63,270 bases of DNA, taken from a bacterium. GTDB taxonomy: Bacteria > Planctomycetota > UBA1135 > GCA-002686595. Position numbers and translations under genes: made by a program. Within the stretch, counting starts at the first letter, position 1. Every line of letters starts with the position of its first letter. The stretch is taken from the NCBI GenBank assembly GCA_030428395.1, contig JAUIDW010000004.1, positions 1-63,270 of the forward strand, given 5' to 3'. The notes beneath the pieces were generated by a model, which was not told the origin of the DNA, ran no database searches, and saw nothing but the letters and a program-made list of their open reading frames with translations. This document shows positions 1,704 to 15,540 of the stretch, one piece after another.

Positions 1704-4235
1704 CTAGGGCAGGACGGGGCGCGCGGGGCGGACGCCGTAGGTGAACTCGCGATGCGAGGCGGCGACCTCGGCGCGGAACGACGAGCGCGCGTAGAAGCTC
1801 GTGTAGGCGAACGCTCCACCCCGGGCGACGCGTGGCTCGCCCTTGCCGAGCGCCTCGCGTTCGGGCGTCCTGCGAACAGGGTCTTCTTTCGGCAGGACCC
1901 CCGGCTGATAAGCGTTCGAGGCGTGGTAGTCCAGGCACCACTCCCACACGTTGCCGTGCACGTCGTGAAGCCCGAAGCCGTTGGGTGCGAACGAGCCGAC
2001 CGGTGCGTGGAGGCCGAAGCCGTCGTCGAGCTGAGACTCCAACTCGAAGAGCTGCATTTGCATATCGGCCGCCGTTGCGTCCGCGAGATTCGCGAATCGG
2101 TCGATGGAAGCCGAGTCAGCTCCGCAGTGCCAGGGGGTCTCCGTCCCGGCCCGGGCGGCGTATTCCCACTGCGCCTCGCTGGGGAGTTCAAGCGCAAACC
2201 GAGGCAGGACCTCGGCGCAGTCCTGCCAGCTGATGGACTCGACGGGTAGGCGAGTGCTTGGAGGGGGCGAGCCCGACAAACGGGCGACCCAGCGCGTATG
2301 CGGGCCGTACTCGCTGGGCGTCTTCCCGGTCAGCCGCTGCCACTGACCCTGGGTCATTTCGTACTTGGAGAGGAAGAATGCAGAGAGGCCGAGTTCGTGA
2401 ACAGGGCCCTCGTCTGCCTGGGCAAGGGGGTCGTAGTGCCGAGCTTCGCGGTCCGTCGCTTGGCCACCGATCCATGCTTTTCCGCCCGGGAGGAGCACGA
2501 GGACAAGTCCTGTACTTCCGGTAATGAGCAGTTCGCCCCGCTCGTCCCGCTTCGGCTCGTCCCCGGACTGCACGTGCCAGAACTCCCAAAGCCCCGAGCC
2601 CGGATCCTTGCCAAGGGGGACGAGCCCCATCTGGGGGGTCAGCTCGAGTTCCGCATACGCCTCGCGGATGGCAGGAAGCGCGGCGACCCAACGGATCGCG
2701 TAAGGCCCGCCGGGTGCGAATCCGTCCCGCAGGGCTTCCGCACTGGCCAAGCGTCTGGGCAAGGTCCAGACGCCCAGCGCGGAGAAACCGTCCGGCTCCA
2801 TCAATCGAGTGGCTTGGAAAGCGCCCAGTCGGGAGACGACGTCCTCGGGCGTGCGCAGCCAGCTCGCACGGGAGACGTCGCTCGCTTCGCTCCGGCGTTC
2901 CCACTGCGGTAGGCGATCGCTGAGACGTCGCGCCGTGTCGATCCACTCCTCCATGGATGCGAGGTGTTCGGGGTGCGCCGGCCAGAGTTCCTTCTCCCTT
3001 CCGAGGAGGCTGTCCACCGCGTGGAAGTCAGACAGCGCTCTTTCCCGCTCAAGGGAGAGTTCCAGATCCTCCTTCGCCCGCGCCTCGTCCCGCCAGGCAC
3101 GCGAGATGACGACCAGGAGCGCCGACACCACCGCGAACACCACCACGGCCGCCACCGCGCCCAGCGACTTGGCCGGGTGGCGCCGCGACCACTTCTGCAG
3201 CTTGTAGAGCTTCGAGGCCGGCCGCGCCTCGATCGGCTCGTTCGCGAGGAACCGCCGCAGGTCCAGCGCGAGGTCCGACATCATCAGGTACCGGCGGTCG
3301 CGGTCCTTCTCGAGGGCCTTCTCGCAGATCACCGCCAGGTCGCGCGGGATGCGCGAGCGGATGGAGCCGAGCTCGGGCGGGTCCTTCACCAGGATCTGGT
3401 CGGCGACCTGGTGCGTCGTGTCTCCCTCGAACGGGCGGCGCAGCGCGAGCATCTCGTACAGCACGACGCCGAGGCTGAAGACGTCCGTGCGGTGGTCGAT
3501 CCCCGAGCGGCGCGCGGCGACCTGCTCGGGGCTCATGTAAAAGTACGTGCCCGCGAAGTCGCCCGTCATCGACAGGGCGGTCTCGTCCATGATCTTGGCG
3601 AGCCCGAAGTCGGTGACCTTGGGGCGGTCCTCGCTCGTGATCAGGATGTTGTGCGGCTTGATGTCGCGGTGGATCACGCCGGCCTCGTGCGCCGCGTGCA
3701 CGGCCTCGGCCACCTGGGCCACGAACTCCGCGACGTGCCGGTCGTAGGCCTCCGGCAGCGACCCCTGGCGCGAGAGCTCGTCGAGGAAGTCGTGCAGGGT
3801 CCAGCATCCCTCGACCAGCTCCATCGCGATCCAGGCCAGCCCGTCGGCGTCGCCGTAGGCGAAGACCTCCACGATCCCCGGGTGGTGCAGCCGGCCGCCC
3901 GCGCGCGCCTCGCGCTGGAAGAGCTTCAGGTCCTTGTCCGTGACGCGCTCCGGCCGCACGAACTTCATCGCCACGCGGCGGCCCAGGGAGACCTGCTCGG
4001 CCTCCCAGACCTGCCCCATGCCGCCCTCGCCGATCAGCGCGACCAGGCGGAAGTCCCCGACCTCCTTGCCCCGCGCCAGCCCCGCGGCCGGCCGCGGAGC
4101 GTCCCCGCGCCGCGCGCGGAAGAACGACATCTCGCCCTCCGGGCCGCGCAGCGCGCGGTCCACGTGGGCGTCGAAGGAGGAGCCGGGTCCGTCCGCGCTG
4201 GACCGGCCGGTCTCGTCGTCGTCCAGGTTGGCCAT
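1704..4235 (-). CDS. Ser/Thr protein kinase fused to a SUMF1 (formylglycine-generating-like) domain
   Basis: An 843-residue membrane kinase. The chosen ATG gives a short polar N-terminus; longer upstream reading is low-complexity Arg/Pro and unlikely to be coding. The kinase domain shows GEGGMG (69-74), the ATP lysine at 91 (VAMKF), HRDIKPHN (189-196), DFG (209-211) and MSPEQ, so it should be active. A single membrane span lies at about 358-378. The outer part, from roughly residue 590, is a SUMF1/sulfatase-modifying-factor fold: IGGQATD, YEMTQGQW, PSEAQWEYAAR, GLHDVHGNVWEWCLDYH and a terminal RVARGGAF block. In such fusions the extracytoplasmic SUMF1 module probably acts as a sensor or ligand binder rather than a true formylglycine generator (family knowledge plus inference). 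Wobble positions in the 3' half (SUMF1 part) are visibly less G/C-biased than in the kinase part, suggesting domain capture. Confidence 0.9.
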   Translation of the reverse strand: MANLDDDETGRSSADGPGSSFDAHVDRALRGPEGEMSFFRARRGDAPRPAAGLARGKEVGDFRLVALIGEGGMGQVWEAEQVSLGRRVAMKFVRPERVTDKDLKLFQREARAGGRLHHPGIVEVFAYGDADGLAWIAMELVEGCWTLHDFLDELSRQGSLPEAYDRHVAEFVAQVAEAVHAAHEAGVIHRDIKPHNILITSEDRPKVTDFGLAKIMDETALSMTGDFAGTYFYMSPEQVAARRSGIDHRTDVFSLGVVLYEMLALRRPFEGDTTHQVADQILVKDPPELGSIRSRIPRDLAVICEKALEKDRDRRYLMMSDLALDLRRFLANEPIEARPASKLYKLQKWSRRHPAKSLGAVAAVVVFAVVSALLVVISRAWRDEARAKEDLELSLERERALSDFHAVDSLLGREKELWPAHPEHLASMEEWIDTARRLSDRLPQWERRSEASDVSRASWLRTPEDVVSRLGAFQATRLMEPDGFSALGVWTLPRRLASAEALRDGFAPGGPYAIRWVAALPAIREAYAELELTPQMGLVPLGKDPGSGLWEFWHVQSGDEPKRDERGELLITGSTGLVLVLLPGGKAWIGGQATDREARHYDPLAQADEGPVHELGLSAFFLSKYEMTQGQWQRLTGKTPSEYGPHTRWVARLSGSPPPSTRLPVESISWQDCAEVLPRFALELPSEAQWEYAARAGTETPWHCGADSASIDRFANLADATAADMQMQLFELESQLDDGFGLHAPVGSFAPNGFGLHDVHGNVWEWCLDYHASNAYQPGVLPKEDPVRRTPEREALGKGEPRVARGGAFAYTSFYARSSFRAEVAASHREFTYGVRPARPVLP

Positions 4236-4536
4236 GGAGTGCGAGGCGCCGGGCTGCTCGAGCCGCGCCGCCGGGCCGAGGCTACCGCCGTCGCAGCGGT
4301 CCACAAGCCGCGGCGGCGGGCCCTGCTCGCCCCGGCCGGGGTCCGGCGCCGGCCGCGCGCCCGGTCGGCGTTCCCGCGGGGATTCTCGGGGGATTCTCGC
4401 AGCACGCGCCCCTGCCTCGCGCTCCAGGGGGCAGGCGCCGGATCGCTCCGCACCGGGCGGAGCCGCGGCGCCCCCCGGGGTCCCGCCTGGTGCCCCGGTT
4501 CCCGAGCCGACCCCTGACCCCGACACCACCGACACC
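4236..4536. other. Divergent intergenic region
   Basis: About 300 bp between the divergent kinase-SUMF1 gene and the FG-GAP gene. It is very GC-rich with no supported ORF. Its one distinct element is the tandem repeat at 4378-4398, listed separately. No good -35/-10 pair was recognised on either strand, although both genes should start from here. Confidence 0.6.
4378..4398. repeat. Tandem GGGGATTCTC repeat, possible operator
   Basis: GGGGATTCTC is followed directly by GGGGGATTCTC, so the two copies are offset by 10 to 11 bp, one helical turn. It lies between two divergent genes, where a same-face pair of half-sites could bind a dimeric or cooperative regulator. On the minus strand each copy contains GAGAAT, which resembles the -10 hexamers seen elsewhere here. 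The regulator is unknown. Confidence 0.35.
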
Positions 4537-6435
4537 ATGAACGTCCCCGTCTTCCTCCTCCTGGGCGAGCTCCTGCTCGCCTCGAGCCTCGAGCCGCTGC
4601 CCCCGCTCGAGCCGCAGGACCCCCGGCCGGCCGCCGCCGAGCGCCTCGTCGACCCGACTCCCTGGGCGGACTTCGACGCGGACGGTCGCGTCGACCTCCT
4701 GGTCCTCCGCGCGGGAGGCCCCGCGAGGCTCCTCCGCAACGCGGCCGGGGGACGCTTCGAGGAGGTCACCCAGGCGGTCCTCGGCGACCTCGACCTGCGG
4801 CTGCGCGCCGCGACCTGGGTCGACGTCGACGGGGACGGCCGGCTCGACCTGCACGCGCTGGAGACCGGCGGCGGCAGCCGCTGGTTCCGCAACCTCGACG
4901 GCTCGCTCCAGGAGGTGAACCCGCTGGGTTCCGAGGACGAGCCGCCCGGCGTGCAGAGCGCCGCGTGGATCGACTTCGACCGCGACGGGGACCCCGACCT
5001 CCACCTGCGCGCGCTCGGAGCCGCCGCGCTGCTGCGCAACGACGGCGAATGGTCGTTCACGCGCATCGAGCTGGGTGAGGACGCGGGAGCCCCCGCCGGC
5101 CTCCCGCGGCCCTACGGGACGGCCCCGTTCGCGGAGGTCCAGCCCGTGGAGCGACCCGAGCGCGCGGGACCGTCGACCGGAGTGCGTTCGGGGCCGTTCG
5201 CCCCGCTCGCGAGCGGCGGCGCTCCGCGCCTCGGGTCGGCCGTGTCGTTCGGCGGCGCCGCCGCGGCCGCGTCAGGCTCACCCGCCTGCGTGGACGGCAT
5301 CCACGACCAGGCCAACCCGGGGGCCTGCATCGGCGCGTCCTCGACGCCGGTCCTGGGGCAGCTGTATCCCCTGAGCCAGGACTTCTTCTTCGATGCGGCG
5401 GGGCGCCTGGGACTCGGGACGACCTCCCCCCAGGCCGACATCCACCGCAGCGCCCCCGACGCCTCCTTCATGCTGTCGGACGATCCGACGGCGGCCAGCC
5501 ATCTGAAGATCGTGGACGAGGCGGCCTGCTGTGCCTCCATCAACAAGGACGTCGCCGGAGGCGCGGCGCAGCTGGACATCAACGCGGTCCCCAAGGACGG
5601 GCAGTCGTCTGCTGCCATCCGCCTGTTCCGCCGCACCAACACGACGGGCCCGGTGGAGTTCGTGCTCCATCGCGGCGACGGCACCAGCGCGGCGGACGTG
5701 ATCATCGGCAGCGGCGGATCCGACACGTACTTCAACTCGGGGAACGTCGGGATCGGGACCGCCTTCCCGGCCGTGCCGCTTCACGTGCGCGCGCGGGGAG
5801 ACGACGTCCCCCTCCTCCGGCTGGACACCGACCGCTCCTGGGAGTTCCGTCAGGAGGGGTCCGGCCCCGCCACGGCGCTCAAGCTGACGAGCGTCGGCGG
5901 CGGCGGCGGGAAGAACTTCCTGATCGACACCACGGGGGCCGTCGGCATCGGCACGCTGAACCCCGCGGCCAAGCTCCACGTGGCGGGGAACGCCCGCGTC
6001 GAGGTGCTCACGATCACGGGCGGCAGCGACCTGGTCGAGGGGTTCGACACGAGCGGCGAGGCGTGTGATCCGGGAACCGTGGTCGTCATCGACCCGAGGT
6101 CCCCGGGGAAGCTGCGCATGTCGACGGAGACCTACGACCCGAAGGTCGCGGGCGTCGTCTCCGGCGCGGGCGACGTCCGGCCGGGCCTGCGTCTGGGCCA
6201 GGACGGCGTCCTCGACGGCGAGACCGACGTCGCCATGACGGGTCGCGTGTTCGTGAAGGCCTCGGCCGAGAACGGCGCCATCGCCCCGGGCGACCTGCTG
6301 ACCACCGCGGCCACGCGCGGCCACGCCATGCGCGCGGACGACCCCGACCGCGCCTTCGGCGCCGTGATCGGCAAGGCCATGGGCGCGCTCGACGAGGGCA
6401 CGGGCCTGGTCCTGGTGCTCGTCAACCTGCAGTGA
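4537..6435 (+). CDS. Secreted FG-GAP/VCBS protein with a VGIGT-type tail domain
   Basis: A 632-residue protein with an N-terminal hydrophobic segment (MNVPVFLLLGELLLASS) consistent with export. Residues about 40-160 contain Ca2+-binding FG-GAP/VCBS-like repeats: DFDADGRVDLL, DVDGDGRLDLHAL and DFDRDGDPDLHL. After a low-complexity linker the second half has two copies of a GIGT-x-P-x-L-H-V type motif (VGIGTAFPAVPLHV and VGIGTLNPAAKLHVAG) plus LGLGTTSPQADIHRS, as seen in tail-fibre-like and adhesin-like proteins. The last 130 residues (SDLVEGFD, GTVVVIDP, KVAGVVSGAG, APGDLLTTAATRGHAM and GKAMGALDEGTGLVLVLV) form a conserved terminal domain I recognise from large surface proteins but cannot name. 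It precedes the protease gene by 20 bp, so the two may be one unit. The function is probably surface display or adhesion (inference). Confidence 0.8.
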   Translation: MNVPVFLLLGELLLASSLEPLPPLEPQDPRPAAAERLVDPTPWADFDADGRVDLLVLRAGGPARLLRNAAGGRFEEVTQAVLGDLDLRLRAATWVDVDGDGRLDLHALETGGGSRWFRNLDGSLQEVNPLGSEDEPPGVQSAAWIDFDRDGDPDLHLRALGAAALLRNDGEWSFTRIELGEDAGAPAGLPRPYGTAPFAEVQPVERPERAGPSTGVRSGPFAPLASGGAPRLGSAVSFGGAAAAASGSPACVDGIHDQANPGACIGASSTPVLGQLYPLSQDFFFDAAGRLGLGTTSPQADIHRSAPDASFMLSDDPTAASHLKIVDEAACCASINKDVAGGAAQLDINAVPKDGQSSAAIRLFRRTNTTGPVEFVLHRGDGTSAADVIIGSGGSDTYFNSGNVGIGTAFPAVPLHVRARGDDVPLLRLDTDRSWEFRQEGSGPATALKLTSVGGGGGKNFLIDTTGAVGIGTLNPAAKLHVAGNARVEVLTITGGSDLVEGFDTSGEACDPGTVVVIDPRSPGKLRMSTETYDPKVAGVVSGAGDVRPGLRLGQDGVLDGETDVAMTGRVFVKASAENGAIAPGDLLTTAATRGHAMRADDPDRAFGAVIGKAMGALDEGTGLVLVLVNLQ

Positions 6436-7928: not shown

Positions 7929-8011
7929 GACTTTCCGGCGCCGGAGCGCCTCGCTCGACGTTCTCGTCAGGCCGCCTCGCCCGCCCGCTCGCCACGGCCG
8001 GGTCGCCCGGT

Positions 8012-8040
8012 TTGCCCGCCCGGGCCGCGCGGTCGACAAT
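8012..8040 (+). promoter_or_regulatory. Promoter of the ECF-like sigma gene, predicted leaderless
   Basis: TTGCCC (8012-8017), a 17-bp spacer, then GACAAT (8035-8040). The next six bases are GGGCGC, and the GTG start follows at 8047. Transcription normally begins about 6-7 nt after the -10 hexamer, so the mRNA would start at or next to the start codon. The same -10/GGGCGC/GTG layout recurs at 24059 and, on the minus strand, at 31038. Confidence 0.6.
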
Positions 8041-8046
8041 GGGCGC

Positions 8047-8646
8047 GTGGACGACCCCGCCCCTCCGGACGCGACGCGCCTGCTGCAGCGGCTGAAGCAG
8101 GGCGACCGCGAGGCCGCCGCGGAGCTCATGCCGCTGGTCTACGGCGAGCTGCACAAGCTGGCCGCGGCGCAGATGGCGCGCCAGCCCGCCGAGCACACGC
8201 TGCAGGCGACCGCCCTCGTGCACGAGGCCTACCTGCGGCTCGTGGGGCACGAGCAGGCGCGCTGGCAGAACCGCGGCGAGTTCTACGGCATGGCCAGCAA
8301 GGTGATGCGCAACGTGCTGGTCGACCACGCGCGCTCGAAGCAAGCCGCCAAGCGCGGCGGCCGCTCCGCCCGGCTGGCGCTGGAGGACGTCGACGCGGTG
8401 GCCGAGGGGACCGGGCCGCCCGACGTCGACCTGCTGGCCCTCGACGAGGCGCTGACCGCCCTGTCCCGCACCGACCCCGGACTCGCGCGCCTCGTCGAGC
8501 TGCGCTTCTTCGGCGGCCTCTCCACCGAGGAGACCGCCCACGTCCTCGAGACCTCCCCGCGCACCGTCGAGCGCCGCTTCCGCGTCGCCCGCATGTGGCT
8601 CGCCGACCACCTCGAGGGCGACGCGCCGGGCCCCGATTCACCCTGA
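8047..8646 (+). CDS. ECF-like sigma factor of the planctomycete TIGR02999 type
   Basis: A 199-residue sigma-70 family protein. The N-terminal PPDATRLLQRLKQGDREAAAEL, then LMPLVYGELHKLAAAQM, HTLQATALVHEAYLRLVG and FYGMASKVMRNVLVDHAR, are signatures of the ECF-like subgroup often modelled as TIGR02999. Region 4 is RLVELRFFGGLSTEETAHVL followed by SPRTVERRFRVARMWL. The GTG start is supported by the promoter placed exactly upstream and by the protein length matching the family; longer starts run into Arg/Pro-rich noncoding-like sequence. This subgroup is usually encoded next to a Ser/Thr kinase with TPRs; here the neighbour on the same strand is a two-component system instead, 101 bp downstream, so its partner kinase is probably elsewhere. 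Confidence 0.9.
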   Translation: MDDPAPPDATRLLQRLKQGDREAAAELMPLVYGELHKLAAAQMARQPAEHTLQATALVHEAYLRLVGHEQARWQNRGEFYGMASKVMRNVLVDHARSKQAAKRGGRSARLALEDVDAVAEGTGPPDVDLLALDEALTALSRTDPGLARLVELRFFGGLSTEETAHVLETSPRTVERRFRVARMWLADHLEGDAPGPDSP

Positions 8647-8733: not shown

Positions 8734-8747
8734 CGCCGGGGGTCACG

Positions 8748-10364
8748 ATGGAGACGCTGCTCCTCGAGAGGACGGCCGCGATCCTGCGCGGGCGCAACCG
8801 GATCCTGCGCGAGCTGGTGGACGGTGCCCCGCTCGAGCGGATCTTCACGGTGATGACGCAGGCGGCCGAGGCGGTCATCCCCGGCATGCGCTGCTCCATC
8901 CTGCGGCTGGACGCGGAGCACGGCGTGCTGCGCCACGGCGCGGCGCCGAGCCTGCCGGACGAGTACAACGAGATCGTGGATGGCCTGCCGGTCGGGCCCG
9001 GCGTCGGCTCGTGCGGCGCCGCGGCCTACGGGGGCGAGCGCGTCGTGGCCGAGGACACGTCCACCCACCCCAACTGGGCCAACTACCAGTCGCTCGTCGA
9101 GCGCTTCGGGCTGCGCAGCTGCTGGTCCGAGCCGATCCGGTCGCCCCGCGGCGAGGTGCTCGGCACGCTCGCGATGTACCACGACGAGCCGTCCACGCCG
9201 GGCCCGTTCGAGATCGAGTTCATCGTCACGAACGCCCAGGTGGCGGCCTACGCGATCGAGCACGACCGCGACCGCCGCGAGCTCCTCCGCCTGCAGGCGC
9301 AGCTGCGGCAGATCATCGACCTCGACCCTCACATGATCTTCGCCAAGGACGAGGAGGGGCGCTTCCTGCTCGCGAACCGCGCGATGGCGAAGGCCTACGG
9401 CTCGAGCAACCCCGAGGAGCTGACCGGCCAGCGGCACGCCGACCTGCAGCCCGTGCCGGAGGAGGCGCGGCGCATGCTCGCCGACGACGCCGAGGTGATG
9501 CAGAGCGGGCACTCGAAGTTCATCGCCGAGGAGACCTTCGTCGACTCCGACGGCGTCAAGCGGGTCCTCCAGACGATCAAGATCCCGTTCACCAGCGCGG
9601 GGACCGACCGCCCGGCAGTGCTCGGCGTGGCGGTGGACATCAGCGAGCGCAAGCGCGCCGAGGAGCGCCTGCAGCGCGCCCTCGAGGAGCTCGAGGAGCG
9701 CCGCCGTTCCCAGGTCGAGTCGATGACCGCCGAGCTGCTGCTCGCCGAGGAGCGCGAGCGGCGCAGCCTCGCGGTCGACCTGCACGACGGGCTGAACCAG
9801 ATCGTGACGCTGGCCCGGATGAAGCTCGCGGCGCTGCGCGGCCAGCTCGAGGGCCCGGCGCAGGAGGCCGTCCGGGAGGTGGAGGCGCTCGTCGAGCAGG
9901 CCAACCGCTCCGCGCGCTCGCTGACCTTCCAGCTGAGCCCCCCGATCCTGCACGACCTGGGCTTCGAGGCGGCCCTGCAGTGGCTGGCCGAGGAGATCGA
10001 GGAGACCCACGGTCTGTGCGTCGAGCTGACCGAGCACGGCGCGCCCGCCGCGCTGGGCGAGGACCTGCGCGTGCTGCTCTTCCGCGCGGTGCGCGAGCTG
10101 CTCATCAACGTGGCCAAGCACGCGGAGGCCAGCCGCGTCACCGTCCACACGGACGTGCTCGACGACGAGATCCGCATCCGCGTCGAGGACGACGGCGCGG
10201 CCTTCGACCCCGCCTCCGTGGACGCCACGCGGAGCATGGGCCTGTCGAGCATCCGCGAGCGCCTCACCAACCTCGGGGGCAGCATGCGGATCGAGTCGAA
10301 GCCCGGGTCCGGCACCTGCATCACCGTCGTGGCGCCGCTCGCCGGCGCGGAGGAGACCCCATGA
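8748..10364 (+). CDS. GAF/PAS sensor histidine kinase of the NarL-partner (HisKA_3) type
   Basis: A 538-residue soluble sensor kinase that would pass phosphate to the regulator encoded next. Domains in order: a GAF domain at about 25-170 (GMRCSILRLD, GPGVGSCGAAAYGG, LRSCWSEPIRSPRGEVLGTL), a PAS domain at about 185-305 (DLDPHMIFAKDEEGRFLLAN, ending AVDISERKRAEERL), a coiled coil, then HisKA_3 with the phospho-acceptor His346 in LAVDLHDGLNQ, and HATPase_c with the N box NVAKHAE (Asn454), DDGAAFD and GLSSIRERL plus GSGT. There is no membrane span, so the signal is cytoplasmic or a small molecule or redox cue. The GAF sequence GSCGAA with a nearby Cys-rich LRSCW is common in redox or small-ligand sensors. 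The ATG was chosen because GAF begins soon after. It overlaps the regulator gene by ATGA. Confidence 0.92.
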   Translation: METLLLERTAAILRGRNRILRELVDGAPLERIFTVMTQAAEAVIPGMRCSILRLDAEHGVLRHGAAPSLPDEYNEIVDGLPVGPGVGSCGAAAYGGERVVAEDTSTHPNWANYQSLVERFGLRSCWSEPIRSPRGEVLGTLAMYHDEPSTPGPFEIEFIVTNAQVAAYAIEHDRDRRELLRLQAQLRQIIDLDPHMIFAKDEEGRFLLANRAMAKAYGSSNPEELTGQRHADLQPVPEEARRMLADDAEVMQSGHSKFIAEETFVDSDGVKRVLQTIKIPFTSAGTDRPAVLGVAVDISERKRAEERLQRALEELEERRRSQVESMTAELLLAEERERRSLAVDLHDGLNQIVTLARMKLAALRGQLEGPAQEAVREVEALVEQANRSARSLTFQLSPPILHDLGFEAALQWLAEEIEETHGLCVELTEHGAPAALGEDLRVLLFRAVRELLINVAKHAEASRVTVHTDVLDDEIRIRVEDDGAAFDPASVDATRSMGLSSIRERLTNLGGSMRIESKPGSGTCITVVAPLAGAEETP

Positions 10365-11032
10365 GCCCGCCCGCCGCCGAGACGCGCGCCGAGCCGATCC
10401 GCATCCTGCTGGTCGACGACCACAAGATGCTGCGCCAGGGTCTCCGCAGCGTGCTGGACGCGGCGCCCGCCATCGCGGTCGTCGGCGAGGCCGGCACCGG
10501 CGTGGAGGCGCTCGAGCAGACGCGCCGCCTGACGCCCGACGTGGTCCTGATGGACGTCGGCCTGCCCGACATGAACGGCATCGAGACCACGCGCGCGCTG
10601 CGCGAGGAGCTGCCGGGCGTCCGCGTGCTGGCGCTGTCCACCCACAGCGACCGCCGCTACGTCGCGAGCATGCTGGAGGCCGGCGCGTCGGGCTACGTCG
10701 TGAAGGCGGCCGCCGCCGACGAGCTGCTGCGCGCGATCGAGGCCGTCGCCGCGGGCCAGCGCTTCCTCAGCCCCGAGATCACCGGCATCGCCCTCGGGCT
10801 GGACGGCGGCCCGCCCGCCTCGCCCTGCGCGGTCCTGGGCCCGCGCGAGCGCCAGGTCCTGAAGCTGCTCGCCGAGGGCCTGACCACCGCGGCCATCGCC
10901 GAGCGCCTCTCGATCTCCCCCAAGACGGTCGAGACGCACCGGCGCAACATCGCCCAGAAGCTGGGCGTGAAGGGCATCGCCGAGCTCACCAAGTTCGCGA
11001 TCCGCGAGGGCCTCACGACGCTCGAGCCCTGA
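10361..11032 (+). CDS. NarL/LuxR-family response regulator
   Basis: A 223-residue DNA-binding response regulator. The receiver domain (about 12-130) carries the acidic pair in LLVDDHKM, the phospho-acceptor Asp65 in VVLMDVGLPDMNG, a Thr/Ser switch in LALSTHSD and the conserved Lys in GYVVKAAAA. The C-terminal LuxR-type HTH (about 158-215) reads LGPRERQVLKLLAEGLTTAA then IAERLSISPKTVETHRRNI and KLGVKGIAELTKFA. The ATG overlaps the kinase stop (ATGA), so kinase and regulator are made together. A palindromic site at 11106-11133 and a promoter lie just downstream, ahead of a candidate small RNA; direct control of that RNA by this regulator is an attractive but unproved guess. Confidence 0.95.
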   Translation: MSPPAAETRAEPIRILLVDDHKMLRQGLRSVLDAAPAIAVVGEAGTGVEALEQTRRLTPDVVLMDVGLPDMNGIETTRALREELPGVRVLALSTHSDRRYVASMLEAGASGYVVKAAAADELLRAIEAVAAGQRFLSPEITGIALGLDGGPPASPCAVLGPRERQVLKLLAEGLTTAAIAERLSISPKTVETHRRNIAQKLGVKGIAELTKFAIREGLTTLEP

Positions 11033-11105: not shown

Positions 11106-11133
11106 TCAGGGTTTTCCCTGATCCGGATCAGGG
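11106..11133. promoter_or_regulatory. Palindromic operator array (TCAGGG/CCCTGA half-sites)
   Basis: CCCTGATCCGGATCAGGG (11116-11133) is a perfect 18-bp palindrome. An extra half-site TCAGGG (11106-11111) forms a second dyad with CCCTGA through a TTTT spacer. The array ends 10 bp before the -35 hexamer at 11144, a position suited to an activator. The cognate protein is unknown; the regulator encoded just upstream is a candidate. Confidence 0.5.
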
Positions 11134-11143
11134 ATTGGCCCGA

Positions 11144-11173
11144 TTGTCCGGGGCTCGCAGCGACCTCTACGAT
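11144..11173 (+). promoter_or_regulatory. Sigma-70-like promoter of a candidate small RNA
   Basis: TTGTCC (11144-11149), an 18-bp spacer, then TACGAT (11168-11173). Predicted transcription start is near 11180. No protein-coding gene follows on this strand before the terminator at 11278-11316. Confidence 0.5.
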
Positions 11174-11179
11174 GGCGAG

Positions 11180-11316
11180 TCCCCGGGGGGGGGAGCCCCC
11201 GAGCAACAACGCGAGGACGTAGGACGCGCCTGAGGGAGGACGGATCCGACGAACCCACGCCGCTCGGGTGGCTGAAGAGAGTCGGTGGCTCCGGGAGCCA
11301 CCGACTCTTTTTTTTT
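11180..11316 (+). ncRNA. Candidate small non-coding RNA, about 137 nt
   Basis: The segment between the promoter at 11144-11173 and the perfect intrinsic terminator at 11278-11316 has no plausible ORF. It starts with a G-rich hairpin (CGGGGG against CCCCCG around 11184-11201), continues with an unpaired-looking AGCAACAACG stretch near 11203, and ends in the terminator stem. The size, the independent promoter and the strong terminator fit a small regulatory RNA. It does not match what I recall of 6S, SRP RNA, tmRNA or RNase P RNA. An alternative is that the terminator only ends the upstream kinase-regulator mRNA, 245 nt after its stop. Confidence 0.45.
11278..11316 (+). terminator. Perfect intrinsic terminator
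   Basis: Stem AGAGTCGGTGGCTC (11278-11291), loop CGG, stem GAGCCACCGACTCT (11295-11308), followed by an uninterrupted T run through 11316. The 14-bp stem has no mismatch. This is the only classic U-tract terminator I could find in the window, and its polarity serves plus-strand transcripts. Confidence 0.92.
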
Positions 11317-11869: not shown

Positions 11870-14800
11870 TCAGAACTCGCCCAGCTCGCGCAGGGCCTCG
11901 TCGTGGCCGCGGTCGCGGATGGCGTCGCGCAGCAGCTCGTTCAGGCGCCGCTCCAGGTCGCGGTTCTCGCGCTCGAGCTCCTCGAGCTCGCGCGAGCGCT
12001 CGTCGCGCTGCAGGTCCTCGAGCTCGGCGCGCAGCCAGGCGTTGCGGCGCACGGCGTCCAGCGTGCGGCGCAGGTCGCTCCGCGCCGTCGCGCGGCGGCG
12101 CCCCAGCAGGTCGCCGGCCTGCTTCTGCAGCTCGACCAGCTCGTCGAAGTCCGGGTCGCGCAGCTCGCGCGCCAGCGCCGCGGACTCGCTCCGCAGGGCG
12201 TCCCACGAGTCGCCCGACGCGTGCACGCTGTCGCGCAGCACCTCGGCGAACTGGGCGACCAGCGTGGCGCGCAGGAAGCCCGGGCCGGCGGCCTCGGGGG
12301 AACCCGCGGCGTCGCGGGCGCGCACGGTGCGCTCGGCCTCGGTGGCGACCTCGGTCTCCGGCGCCGCGCCGGCGTCGCCGTGCGGCGGCTTCCAGCGCAG
12401 GCGCACCGTCGCCAGCGGGTCCTCGGCGTCCGCGCCGCCGACGCGCTCGAGCTCGAACAGCGCCACGACCTGGTGCCCCGAGCCGATCTCGCCGGCGTCC
12501 ACCGCGTCGTTGCGGAAGTCCGCGTCGGCCACGCGCCGGTTCTCGTAGCCCAGCTGGCGCCAGCGCAGCACCTGGGCCGGGTCGAACTCGACCTGCAGCT
12601 TCACGTCGCGCGCGATCGGCTCGAAGGCGCCCAGGAAGTTGTCCACCAGCGCCCGCCGCGCCTCGAGCGGCGTGTCGACGTAGTTGCACAGGCCGTCGCC
12701 GCGGTTGGCGAGCTGCTCCAGGAACACGTCGTTGTGGTTGTTCATGCCCACGCCGATCGTGTTCAGGTAGATGCCCTCGTCGCGCCGCGCCGCCACGTCC
12801 CGCGTGATGCGGTCCTGGTCGGTCTGGCCGACGTTGGCGACGCCGTCGGAGAAGAGCACCACGCGGTTGCTCGCGCCTCGCGCGAAGCGCGCCGAGGCCA
12901 GCTCGTAGCCCAGCCGCAGGCCCGCCTCGGCGTTCGTGCTGCCCTGCGGCCGGACGTCGTGCAGGGCGGTCTCGATCGCGCCGCGGTCGATGGCCGGGGT
13001 CGCCCCCAGCAGGATGCGCGCGTCGCGGTTGAACGTGACGATGGCGACCGAGTCGCGCCCGTCCAGCTCGCCCAGCAGCATGCGCACGCCGTACTTCACG
13101 AGCTCCATGCGGTCCTGCTCCTTCATCGAGCCCGACACGTCCAGCACGATCGTCAGCGCCAGCGGCCGGCGCTCCTCGCGCGACACCTCGCGTCCGCGCA
13201 CGACGACGCGCAGCAGCCAGTGGTCGGGCGTCGGCCCGAAGCGGCTGGGCGCGAGGTCGGTGTGGATCGCGAAGGTCCCCTCCGCCGGCGCGTCCACGTC
13301 CGGGCGGAAGTAGTTCAGGAACTCCTCGGTGCGCACCGCCGCCGGCGGCGGCAGGCTGCCGTTCCGCAGGTAGTTGCGCGCCAGGGCGTAGCTCGCCGTG
13401 TCCACGTCCGCCGCCAGCGTCGCCAGCCGGTCCTGGTGCGTGCGCACGAAGGCGTTGTCGCCCCAGAAGCGGAAGAACATGTCCCGCGGCCGCTCGTCGG
13501 GCCGCCGCCGACAGCGCTCGAGCACCCGCTCGGTCAGCACGTCCGGGTCGACCAGCCCGAGCTGGTTGTCGAAGGTGAAGCGGTGGCGCTCGAGGCCGTC
13601 GCGGGCCTGGTACGCCTCGCCGAGGAAGAAGTCCGTGTCCCCCTTCGCGTCCTCGTCGACGTACCCGAGCGCGTCCAGGGCCTCCGCGGGCCGGGCGCCG
13701 GCACCCGGCGGCAGCGAGCCGGGGCCCGCGGTGGTCCCGGGGGCGCCGCGCGTGCCGAGAGCCACGGACCCACTCGGGCCGGCGGCTGGGCCGGCGCCCG
13801 ACGCCGGGCCGGGCGTGCCGGGACCGGACGCAGAGCCGGACCCGCCCGCGGCCTTCAGGTTGCGACGCCCGCCGAAGCGAGCGCCGAACTTGCCGCCCGC
13901 GCCGCCGCCGACGCCGATGATCTCGTTGGAGGGCGTCGTGGCTCCCCCTCCGCCGGTGGAGCTCGGCGCCTCTTCCTTGGCCCGCACGGGCGGAGCCGCG
14001 GGTCCGGCCCTCGGAGCGGACTCCGGGGGGTTGCCGTCGTAGCCCAGCACGCGCAGCCGTTCGATCCTCTCCGCGACGAGCGGCGCCTCCTCGGGCTGGT
14101 CGGCGGGGGCGATCTCGTCGTACAGCGCGCCGGCCTTCGCGGCGGACTCCCGACTCGCGAGCTCGTCGACGTAGCCGATCTCCTGGAGCGCCTCCTCCAG
14201 GCCGGCCTCGGCGCCGTCCGCCTCCGCGCTCGGCGCCGAGAAGGCGTCGGCGTCGTCCTTCGCCTCCGCGCGTCGCACCGCGGCGCCGGCCAGCAGGTTG
14301 CCGGCCTCGCCCGCGGCCTGCCGGCGCGGCTCCTCCAGGTCGGTCACGGAGCGCCCGAGCTGCTCGACGCCGTCCACCAGGCCGCCGCGGGCGACCTTCT
14401 CGAGCGAGTCGGCCCGCGCGTCCGACGTTCGGGCCGCCTCCGCCTCGGACGGGACGGCGATCTGCGCCTCCGGCGCGCGCGCGACGTCGCCGTCGAGGCC
14501 GATCGCGCCCGGGCCGGGCTCGGCGGCGCGCCAGGCGACGAAGGCCATGGCGACCACGGCCGCCGCGGCGGCCAGGCCGGCGAGGCGGCGCGGGAAGCGC
14601 AGCACCGGCGCGGGGCGCGCGGCGCGGCGCAGCAGGTCGTCGGTGGCGGCGGGCGGCAGGCGCTCGCCGGCGGCGGCGTCGTCGCCCAGGGCGCCCTGGA
14701 CGAGGCCGATGGTGCGCTCGAGGCGCTCGCGCTCGGCGCGCAGCGCGGGGTCGCGCGCGAGCTCCGCCTCGAGCGCGTCGCGCTCGTCGGCGGGCAGCTC

Positions 14801-14878
14801 GCCCAGCACGTAGGCGCACAGGCGCTCGTGGCGCGGATCCCGTTGCTCGTCGGCCCGGTTCTCTTCTTTCGGTTGCAT
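11870..14878 (-). CDS. Membrane VWA-domain protein (YfbK-like), probable anti-sigma partner
   Basis: A 1002-residue protein. The first 60 residues (HERLCAYVLGELPADERDAL and following Glu/Arg-rich helix) resemble the sigma-binding head of planctomycete anti-sigma factors. A single span lies at about 98-117. A long Gly/Ala/Glu-rich linker follows, then the YfbK-type N-terminal segment (MFFRFWGDNAFVRTHQDRLA, DVDTASYALARNYLRNG, EEFLNYF) and the VWA domain with an intact MIDAS: DVSGSM near residue 580, STNAEAG and FSDGVANVG. After that comes the DUF3520-like region (LGYENRRVADADFRNDAVD) and a C-terminal coiled coil. The ATG overlaps the sigma-factor stop by one base (TGATG), so the two are co-translated. 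I infer a membrane-held regulator of that sigma factor with a metal-dependent ligand-binding sensor outside. Confidence 0.85.
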   Translation of the reverse strand: MQPKEENRADEQRDPRHERLCAYVLGELPADERDALEAELARDPALRAERERLERTIGLVQGALGDDAAAGERLPPAATDDLLRRAARPAPVLRFPRRLAGLAAAAAVVAMAFVAWRAAEPGPGAIGLDGDVARAPEAQIAVPSEAEAARTSDARADSLEKVARGGLVDGVEQLGRSVTDLEEPRRQAAGEAGNLLAGAAVRRAEAKDDADAFSAPSAEADGAEAGLEEALQEIGYVDELASRESAAKAGALYDEIAPADQPEEAPLVAERIERLRVLGYDGNPPESAPRAGPAAPPVRAKEEAPSSTGGGGATTPSNEIIGVGGGAGGKFGARFGGRRNLKAAGGSGSASGPGTPGPASGAGPAAGPSGSVALGTRGAPGTTAGPGSLPPGAGARPAEALDALGYVDEDAKGDTDFFLGEAYQARDGLERHRFTFDNQLGLVDPDVLTERVLERCRRRPDERPRDMFFRFWGDNAFVRTHQDRLATLAADVDTASYALARNYLRNGSLPPPAAVRTEEFLNYFRPDVDAPAEGTFAIHTDLAPSRFGPTPDHWLLRVVVRGREVSREERRPLALTIVLDVSGSMKEQDRMELVKYGVRMLLGELDGRDSVAIVTFNRDARILLGATPAIDRGAIETALHDVRPQGSTNAEAGLRLGYELASARFARGASNRVVLFSDGVANVGQTDQDRITRDVAARRDEGIYLNTIGVGMNNHNDVFLEQLANRGDGLCNYVDTPLEARRALVDNFLGAFEPIARDVKLQVEFDPAQVLRWRQLGYENRRVADADFRNDAVDAGEIGSGHQVVALFELERVGGADAEDPLATVRLRWKPPHGDAGAAPETEVATEAERTVRARDAAGSPEAAGPGFLRATLVAQFAEVLRDSVHASGDSWDALRSESAALARELRDPDFDELVELQKQAGDLLGRRRATARSDLRRTLDAVRRNAWLRAELEDLQRDERSRELEELERENRDLERRLNELLRDAIRDRGHDEALRELGEF

Positions 14879-15540
14879 CACGACTCTCCTTGCGCGAGGC
14901 GCAGGTCGGACGGCCGCCCGTCGGTCACGGGGGCGGGCGCGGCGGCGGCGCGCGGCGCGCCCTCGAGTAGCGGCTCGAGGCGGTCGCCGAGCGCCTTCAG
15001 GCCGGCGCTGATCAGCCAGCCGACGGTCCCGACCTTGCGGCCGGTGATGTCGGCGATCTCGCGGTAGCTGCGGCCGCCGAGCAGGCGCAGGACGAGCACC
15101 TCGCGCTGGTCCCCCGGCAGCGCCTCGAGGCTGCGCTCGACCGCGGCGACGGTGTCGCGCTGCTCGAGCTCGGTCGTGGCCTCGGCCACCTCCTCGCGCG
15201 CCGCGACCGCCTCCTCGCGGTGCCGGCGGCGCGCCTCGGCTCGTCGTGTGTCCATGCAGCAGTTCCTCGTCACCTTGTGCAGCCACGAGCGCAGGTGGGC
15301 GCGCTCGCGCTCCGCGTCGCCCGCGATCTCCGCCGGCAGCACCGGCGGCCGCTCGACCAGCCGCAGGAACGCCTCCTGGACCGCGTCCTCCCAGGCGCCG
15401 GCGGCGCCGAGCAGCGACCGCGCGTGCTTCAGCAGCACGCCCTGGTGCCGCTCGACCAGGACCCCGAAGGCCCCCGCGTCGCCGGCCCGGAAGGCGCCCA
15501 GGAGGGCGCCGTCACTCGACTCGTCCCTGACGTGTGTCAT
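14878..15540 (-). CDS. ECF-family sigma factor paired with the VWA protein
   Basis: A 220-residue sigma factor. Region 2: DAGAFGVLVERHQGVLLKHA, then WEDAVQEAFLRLVERPP and the region 2.4-like LRSWLHKVTRNCCMDTRR. Region 4: ALPGDQREVLVLRLLGGRSY followed by REIADITGRKVGTVGWLISA and GLKALGDRLEPLLEG. A charged linker of about 35 residues separates the two. The gene precedes and overlaps the membrane VWA gene, the usual order for a sigma factor and its regulator. Its own promoter must lie in the 146-bp region before the divergent promoter of fic; no clear hexamers were seen on the minus strand there. Confidence 0.92.
   Translation of the reverse strand: MTHVRDESSDGALLGAFRAGDAGAFGVLVERHQGVLLKHARSLLGAAGAWEDAVQEAFLRLVERPPVLPAEIAGDAERERAHLRSWLHKVTRNCCMDTRRAEARRRHREEAVAAREEVAEATTELEQRDTVAAVERSLEALPGDQREVLVLRLLGGRSYREIADITGRKVGTVGWLISAGLKALGDRLEPLLEGAPRAAAAPAPVTDGRPSDLRLAQGES

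Follow-up and report, generated by a model that had tools for sequence, protein, structure and literature searches.

Does the gene-free DNA behind a two-component system in this genome encode a small RNA under the control of that system, or does it only carry the 3′ end of the kinase-regulator mRNA? We approached this question by examining the elements of the segment, the corresponding loci in related genomes and the RNA-binding proteins encoded across the family.

A kinase-regulator pair followed by a gene-free segment

The window, the whole 63,270-nt stretch of DNA that was analysed, is contig C424 of genome G000, a fragmented assembly of 5.83 Mb in 554 contigs. Pfam matches identified a sensor histidine kinase with a GAF-PAS-HisKA_3-HATPase_c architecture (8745–10364, + strand) and, following it on the same strand, a response regulator with receiver and GerE domains, presumed to be an activator (10361–11032). 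Since the latter carries both PF00072 and PF00196, a receiver plus a LuxR-type helix-turn-helix, it belongs to the NarL/FixJ (GerE) class, and its nearest solved structure is NarL (1a04). The best NCBIfam matches of both proteins were below cut-off, being of the MctS/UhpB/LiaS type for the kinase and the MctR and UvrY/SirA/GacA models for the regulator. The next gene after the RNA segment is a convergent DUF4332 gene (PF14229, 11356–11763, − strand), and the gene adjoining the segment downstream varies from genome to genome. The first-pass annotation had placed a gene-free segment right after a two-component system; we found the kinase and the regulator upstream, and no credible ORF between the −10 element and the terminator of the window transcript.

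Several other genes were noted in this part of the window. A PF07638 ECF sigma factor (7942–8646, + strand) lies upstream of the kinase-regulator pair, and a serine/threonine kinase (1704–5066, − strand) has an apparent C-terminal formylglycine-generating-enzyme-like domain, as judged from reading of the translation only. The occurrence of a PF07638 sigma factor close to a serine/threonine kinase would fit a member of the Planctomycetota. vWA and YfbK C-terminal domains were identified in a large ORF (11870–15286, − strand), which overlaps an ECF-sigma-factor-like ORF in another frame (14878–15540, − strand), and the vWA gene probably has its actual start inside the listed ORF.

Two tandem boxes precede a weak promoter-like element

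Along the segment, the elements are arranged in the order TCAGGGTTTTCCCTGA-TCCGGA-TCAGGGATTGGCCCGA-TTGTCC-N18-TACGAT. The perfect palindrome TCCCTGATCCGGATCAGGGA spans 20 bp (11115–11134) and is the longest in the window, the runners-up being 16 bp, and it is composed of the right half of one box and the left half of the next. The distal box 1, TCAGGGTTTTCCCTGA (11106–11121, + strand), and the proximal box 2, TCAGGGATTGGCCCGA (11128–11143, + strand), match at 12/12 and 10/12 positions, respectively, a consensus that was partly derived from the sequences tested with it. Both have the form TCNGGG-N4-CCCNGA, the second imperfectly, and box 2 begins 22 bp after the start of box 1, or about two turns of the helix. 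The perfect palindrome described previously as 18 bp with an extra half-site thus measures 20 bp, and palindrome and half-site are better read as two tandem candidate boxes for the regulator. The centres of boxes 1 and 2 are at approximately −66 and −44 relative to the putative start, and a site about 44 bp before the start is a usual position for an activator of the NarL class.

To judge how often such elements occur by chance, the segment was shuffled with its dinucleotides preserved. A box of the quality of the best box appeared in ~0.07% of the shuffles, and a box of box-2 quality 38–41 bp before a TA-type −10, which is a loosely defined element, appeared in 0.1%. Furthermore, the window's own genome contains just one site besides box 1 that differs from the box by no more than one mismatch. 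This second close copy, TCAGGGTTTTCCCTGG at G000:C99:23545–23560, has no −10 at 40 bp. Outside the segment, the palindrome had only scattered matches at 2 mismatches, in which no pattern was seen.

The promoter proposed by the first-pass annotation, TTGTCC-N18-TACGAT, is present and weak by itself. The weak −35-like TTGTCC (11144–11149, + strand) abuts box 2 and is separated by an 18-bp spacer from the −10-like TACGAT (11168–11173, + strand); together they match the sigma-70 consensus at 8/12 positions, which is why the pair is absent from the promoter scan list. In four relatives, a TA-type hexamer was found at the same place as the −10, and the hexamers at the −35 position read TGGTCC, TTGATC, TAGCAT and TTACGC. 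Box 2 starts 40 bp before the −10, and the same spacing was found in the genomes G024, G008 and G079.

Five genera share the box and −10 spacing behind orthologous regulators

Of the 81 family genomes, 8 encode close relatives of the kinase, counting the window's own, and the rest of the class yielded none. Beyond the family, a kinase ortholog was found in just one of 392 phylum genomes, G252, which lacked the unit of box, −10 and hairpin. The regulator orthologs within the family are 53–61% identical. Directly behind the regulator gene, a box followed by a TA-type −10 was found in four relatives, each from another genus: TCAGGGTTTTCCCGGA-24-TAGATA in G024, TCCGGGTAAGCCCGGA-24-TAGTCT in G008, TCCCCGATAACCGGGA-24-TACCGT in G079 and TAGGGGGAAACCCTGA-22-TAGAGT in G066. 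Together with the window, all five genera have 38–40 bp between the box start and the −10. The putative regulator site therefore occupies, at the level of sequence, a fixed place upstream of the promoter that is kept in relatives. In addition, G024 has a second box 22 bp upstream, forming the same tandem as in the window.

A box of at least 10/12 located 38–40 bp before a TA-type −10 was detected in G000, G024, G008 and G066, with shuffle frequencies of 0.001, 0.0003, < 0.0003 and 0.0003, respectively; the G079 unit is weaker (9/12, shuffle frequency 0.018). Across 232 kb of loci, only eight box/−10 pairs occurred at up to 3 mismatches, and four of them lie directly behind an orthologous regulator of the kinase-first group. 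In G008, with 0 mismatches, and in G024, with 1 mismatch, the regulator-adjacent site is the best box/−10 site of the whole genome; its counterpart in the window's genome is only one among many at two mismatches. Genome-wide, total counts of sites with the same box/−10 spacing did not exceed those of a reversed control, giving no evidence of a larger regulon. The RNA may thus be the main target of the regulator.

The unit is not universal among the orthologs. No such unit was found behind the regulators of G062, G009, G043, G021 and G074 (the last cut by a contig end), nor behind regulator-first orthologs. In the regulator tree, the orthologs with reversed gene order, which lack the unit, form a clade (support 100/99) that contains none of the five unit-bearing regulators. 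About half of the remaining orthologs are without the unit, so it has either often been lost or is in some cases unrecognisable. Two further sites were observed among these loci. The site in the second copy in G066 is weak and is located upstream of another gene. In G043, the box TCAGGGTTTTCCCGGA with an upstream TCAGGG half is located at C192:853–868 (reverse strand), ~2.4 kb downstream of the orthologous regulator; a TA-type −10 follows only ~31 bp after the box start, and this is possibly a displaced form of the unit.

The presumed transcripts end in hairpins and have variable bodies

The putative small non-coding RNA of the window, with its start placed from the −10, would extend from 11179 to 11316 on the + strand (~130–138 nt), between the promoter and an intrinsic terminator (11278–11316, + strand only). 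The terminator has a 14-bp perfect stem formed by AGAGTCGGTGGCTC (11278–11291) and GAGCCACCGACTCT (11295–11308) around a CGG loop, followed by eight further T, and it is thus a G+C-rich stem-loop that passes directly into a U tract. Its T run is the only run of at least 7 T or A in 63 kb. These data confirm the perfect 14-bp terminator with a long T run that had been noted earlier, as well as its rank as the sole classic U-tract terminator of the window, for no other strong one was found in the 63 kb. The fold of the window RNA gave z-scores of −4.6 to −4.8, to which the terminator contributes most.

In all five genera, the −10 is followed by 70–145 nt that end in a strong hairpin, and the whole-transcript fold z-scores of the five presumed transcripts range from −3.5 to −5.4. 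The 5′ parts of the RNAs of the window, G079 and G024 fold no better than shuffles (z −0.3 to −1.8). The sequences of the terminal hairpins are unrelated among the five genomes, and a U tract is present in the window, less so in G024, and poor in G066, G008 and G079. The following gene is convergent in the window and, judged from sequence, in G079, G024 and G066, which argues that in these four the promoter does not belong to an adjacent protein-coding gene; a hairpin end without a close downstream gene was found in 4/5 genera. In G008 (C538, reverse strand), a second promoter-like stretch, TCTAAGCTGGAGTCTCG, lies ~270 bp after the first −10 with an ORF downstream. The CTGGAGTCTCG start region seen in the first unit (TTAGTCTGGAGTCTCG) recurs in this stretch, which may be a duplicate of the unit or a promoter for the next ORF.

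A search of 40 relatives revealed no DNA-level homologs of the segment, indicating a lack of conservation of the RNA at the sequence level. The five RNA bodies likewise gave no credible alignment; the body is hardly conserved and differs between genomes, and the conservation of the AGCAACAACG region suggested earlier was not seen. The transcripts repeatedly show a purine-rich stretch (GAGGGGGARA-like), with p values of 0.007 at width 10, 0.09 at width 12 and 0.48 at width 14, and we consider this shared motif marginal and not convincingly above chance. The first-pass annotation had also called for a comparison with Rfam. The scan of the window gave no match above the gathering threshold, and the RNA was not assigned to any known family: the best weak match, asX1 (RF02235), reached 27 of the 70 bits required by its gathering threshold and stems from the terminator hairpin.

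No Hfq or CsrA was found in the family genomes

Hfq (PF17209) was found in 0/81 family genomes and CsrA (PF02599) in 0/41 genomes, the window's own included, while the control genomes were positive for both; as the genomes are incomplete, these absences are not proofs. With Hfq in 0/81 genomes, an Hfq-dependent trans-acting sRNA is unlikely, as is a CsrA sponge of the CsrB/RsmZ type with CsrA in 0/41.

Discussion

We propose, with a probability of about 0.68, that the segment carries a separate small non-coding RNA gene whose transcription is driven directly by the neighbouring two-component system. The sequence elements themselves were directly observed, as was the constancy of the operator/−10 spacing downstream of the orthologous regulator genes of five genera. 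This spacing, together with the hairpin ends, supports the layout of a regulated small RNA that the first-pass annotation had recognised. Four related genera have a similar switch with near-equal spacing at the corresponding position, so the sensor probably controls the RNA directly. From these data we infer transcription, activation rather than repression, and the binding of this regulator to the boxes. The kinase would phosphorylate the NarL-class regulator, dimers of which would bind the two tandem boxes of the TCAGGG-N4-CCCTGA type centred at about −44 and −66 relative to the start. The bound regulator would then bring RNA polymerase to a promoter whose −35 is poor, and an RNA of ~130–138 nt would be made that ends at the U-tract terminator.

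Alternatively, the segment may be only the 3′ end of the kinase-regulator mRNA, with a terminator that closes the operon and dyads that arose by chance or serve another role. The terminator is indeed the first one after the regulator, on the same strand and ~245 nt past the stop codon, the promoter alone scores 8/12 against consensus, and the RNA body is not conserved. However, this explanation, which we regard as unlikely, does not account for boxes at a fixed distance to the −10 in several genera or for the same 22-bp tandem in G024. The sequence data thus support a regulator-activated non-coding RNA of ~130–138 nt rather than a plain 3′ UTR, and the operon mRNA and the small RNA may share the terminator. 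Less probable still is that the dyads serve autoregulation or the repression of read-through into the convergent region, with no distinct RNA product of importance. The site does lie 75–110 bp past the regulator stop codon, and the variable RNA body would also fit, but the site is downstream rather than upstream of the regulator gene, and the fixed distance to a −10 on the regulator's strand and the hairpin end recur in five genera.

The proposed small RNA gene shares features with two known systems. The NreC site has a GGG-N4-CCC core. As in the present case, the operators of NreC in the staphylococcal NreBC system combine a NarL-class regulator with a GC-rich palindromic site (PMC8139620); NreC sites control nitrate/nitrite respiration operons, whereas the candidate site here would control an RNA. 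The GacA/UvrY-dependent sRNAs (RsmX/Y/Z, CsrB/C) also have a NarL/FixJ regulator and a palindromic site upstream of a non-coding RNA gene, and these systems work by soaking up CsrA (PMC4682653). In contrast to them, no CsrA was found in the family, the proposed RNA gene adjoins the regulator gene, and the boxes lie at ~−44 and ~−66 rather than at ~−183 as in E. coli csrB. That the RNA titrates CsrA via GGA motifs and is induced by a GacA-like regulator is therefore very improbable despite its several AGGA motifs and the below-cut-off match of the regulator to the UvrY/SirA/GacA model, since PF02599 was found in 0/41 genomes with controls as expected and the TCAGGG-N4-CCCTGA box is unlike the UvrY/GacA site TGTAAG-N6-CTTACA (PMC4682653).

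As for the function of the proposed small RNA, our default guess, made because neither Hfq nor CsrA was found in the family, is that it would pair with target mRNAs independently of Hfq. More tentatively, and with some doubt, it may represent a lineage-specific family of regulatory RNAs that forms the main, perhaps the only, direct output of the two-component system in the apparent absence of Hfq and CsrA. With promoter and place kept and the RNA body free to change, the mechanism of such a family would have to differ from the two best-known ones. If transcribed, the locus would provide a small RNA controlled by a two-component system through a predicted, defined operator in a little-studied lineage in which Hfq and CsrA were not found, and small-RNA regulation without either protein could thus be tested on a concrete example.
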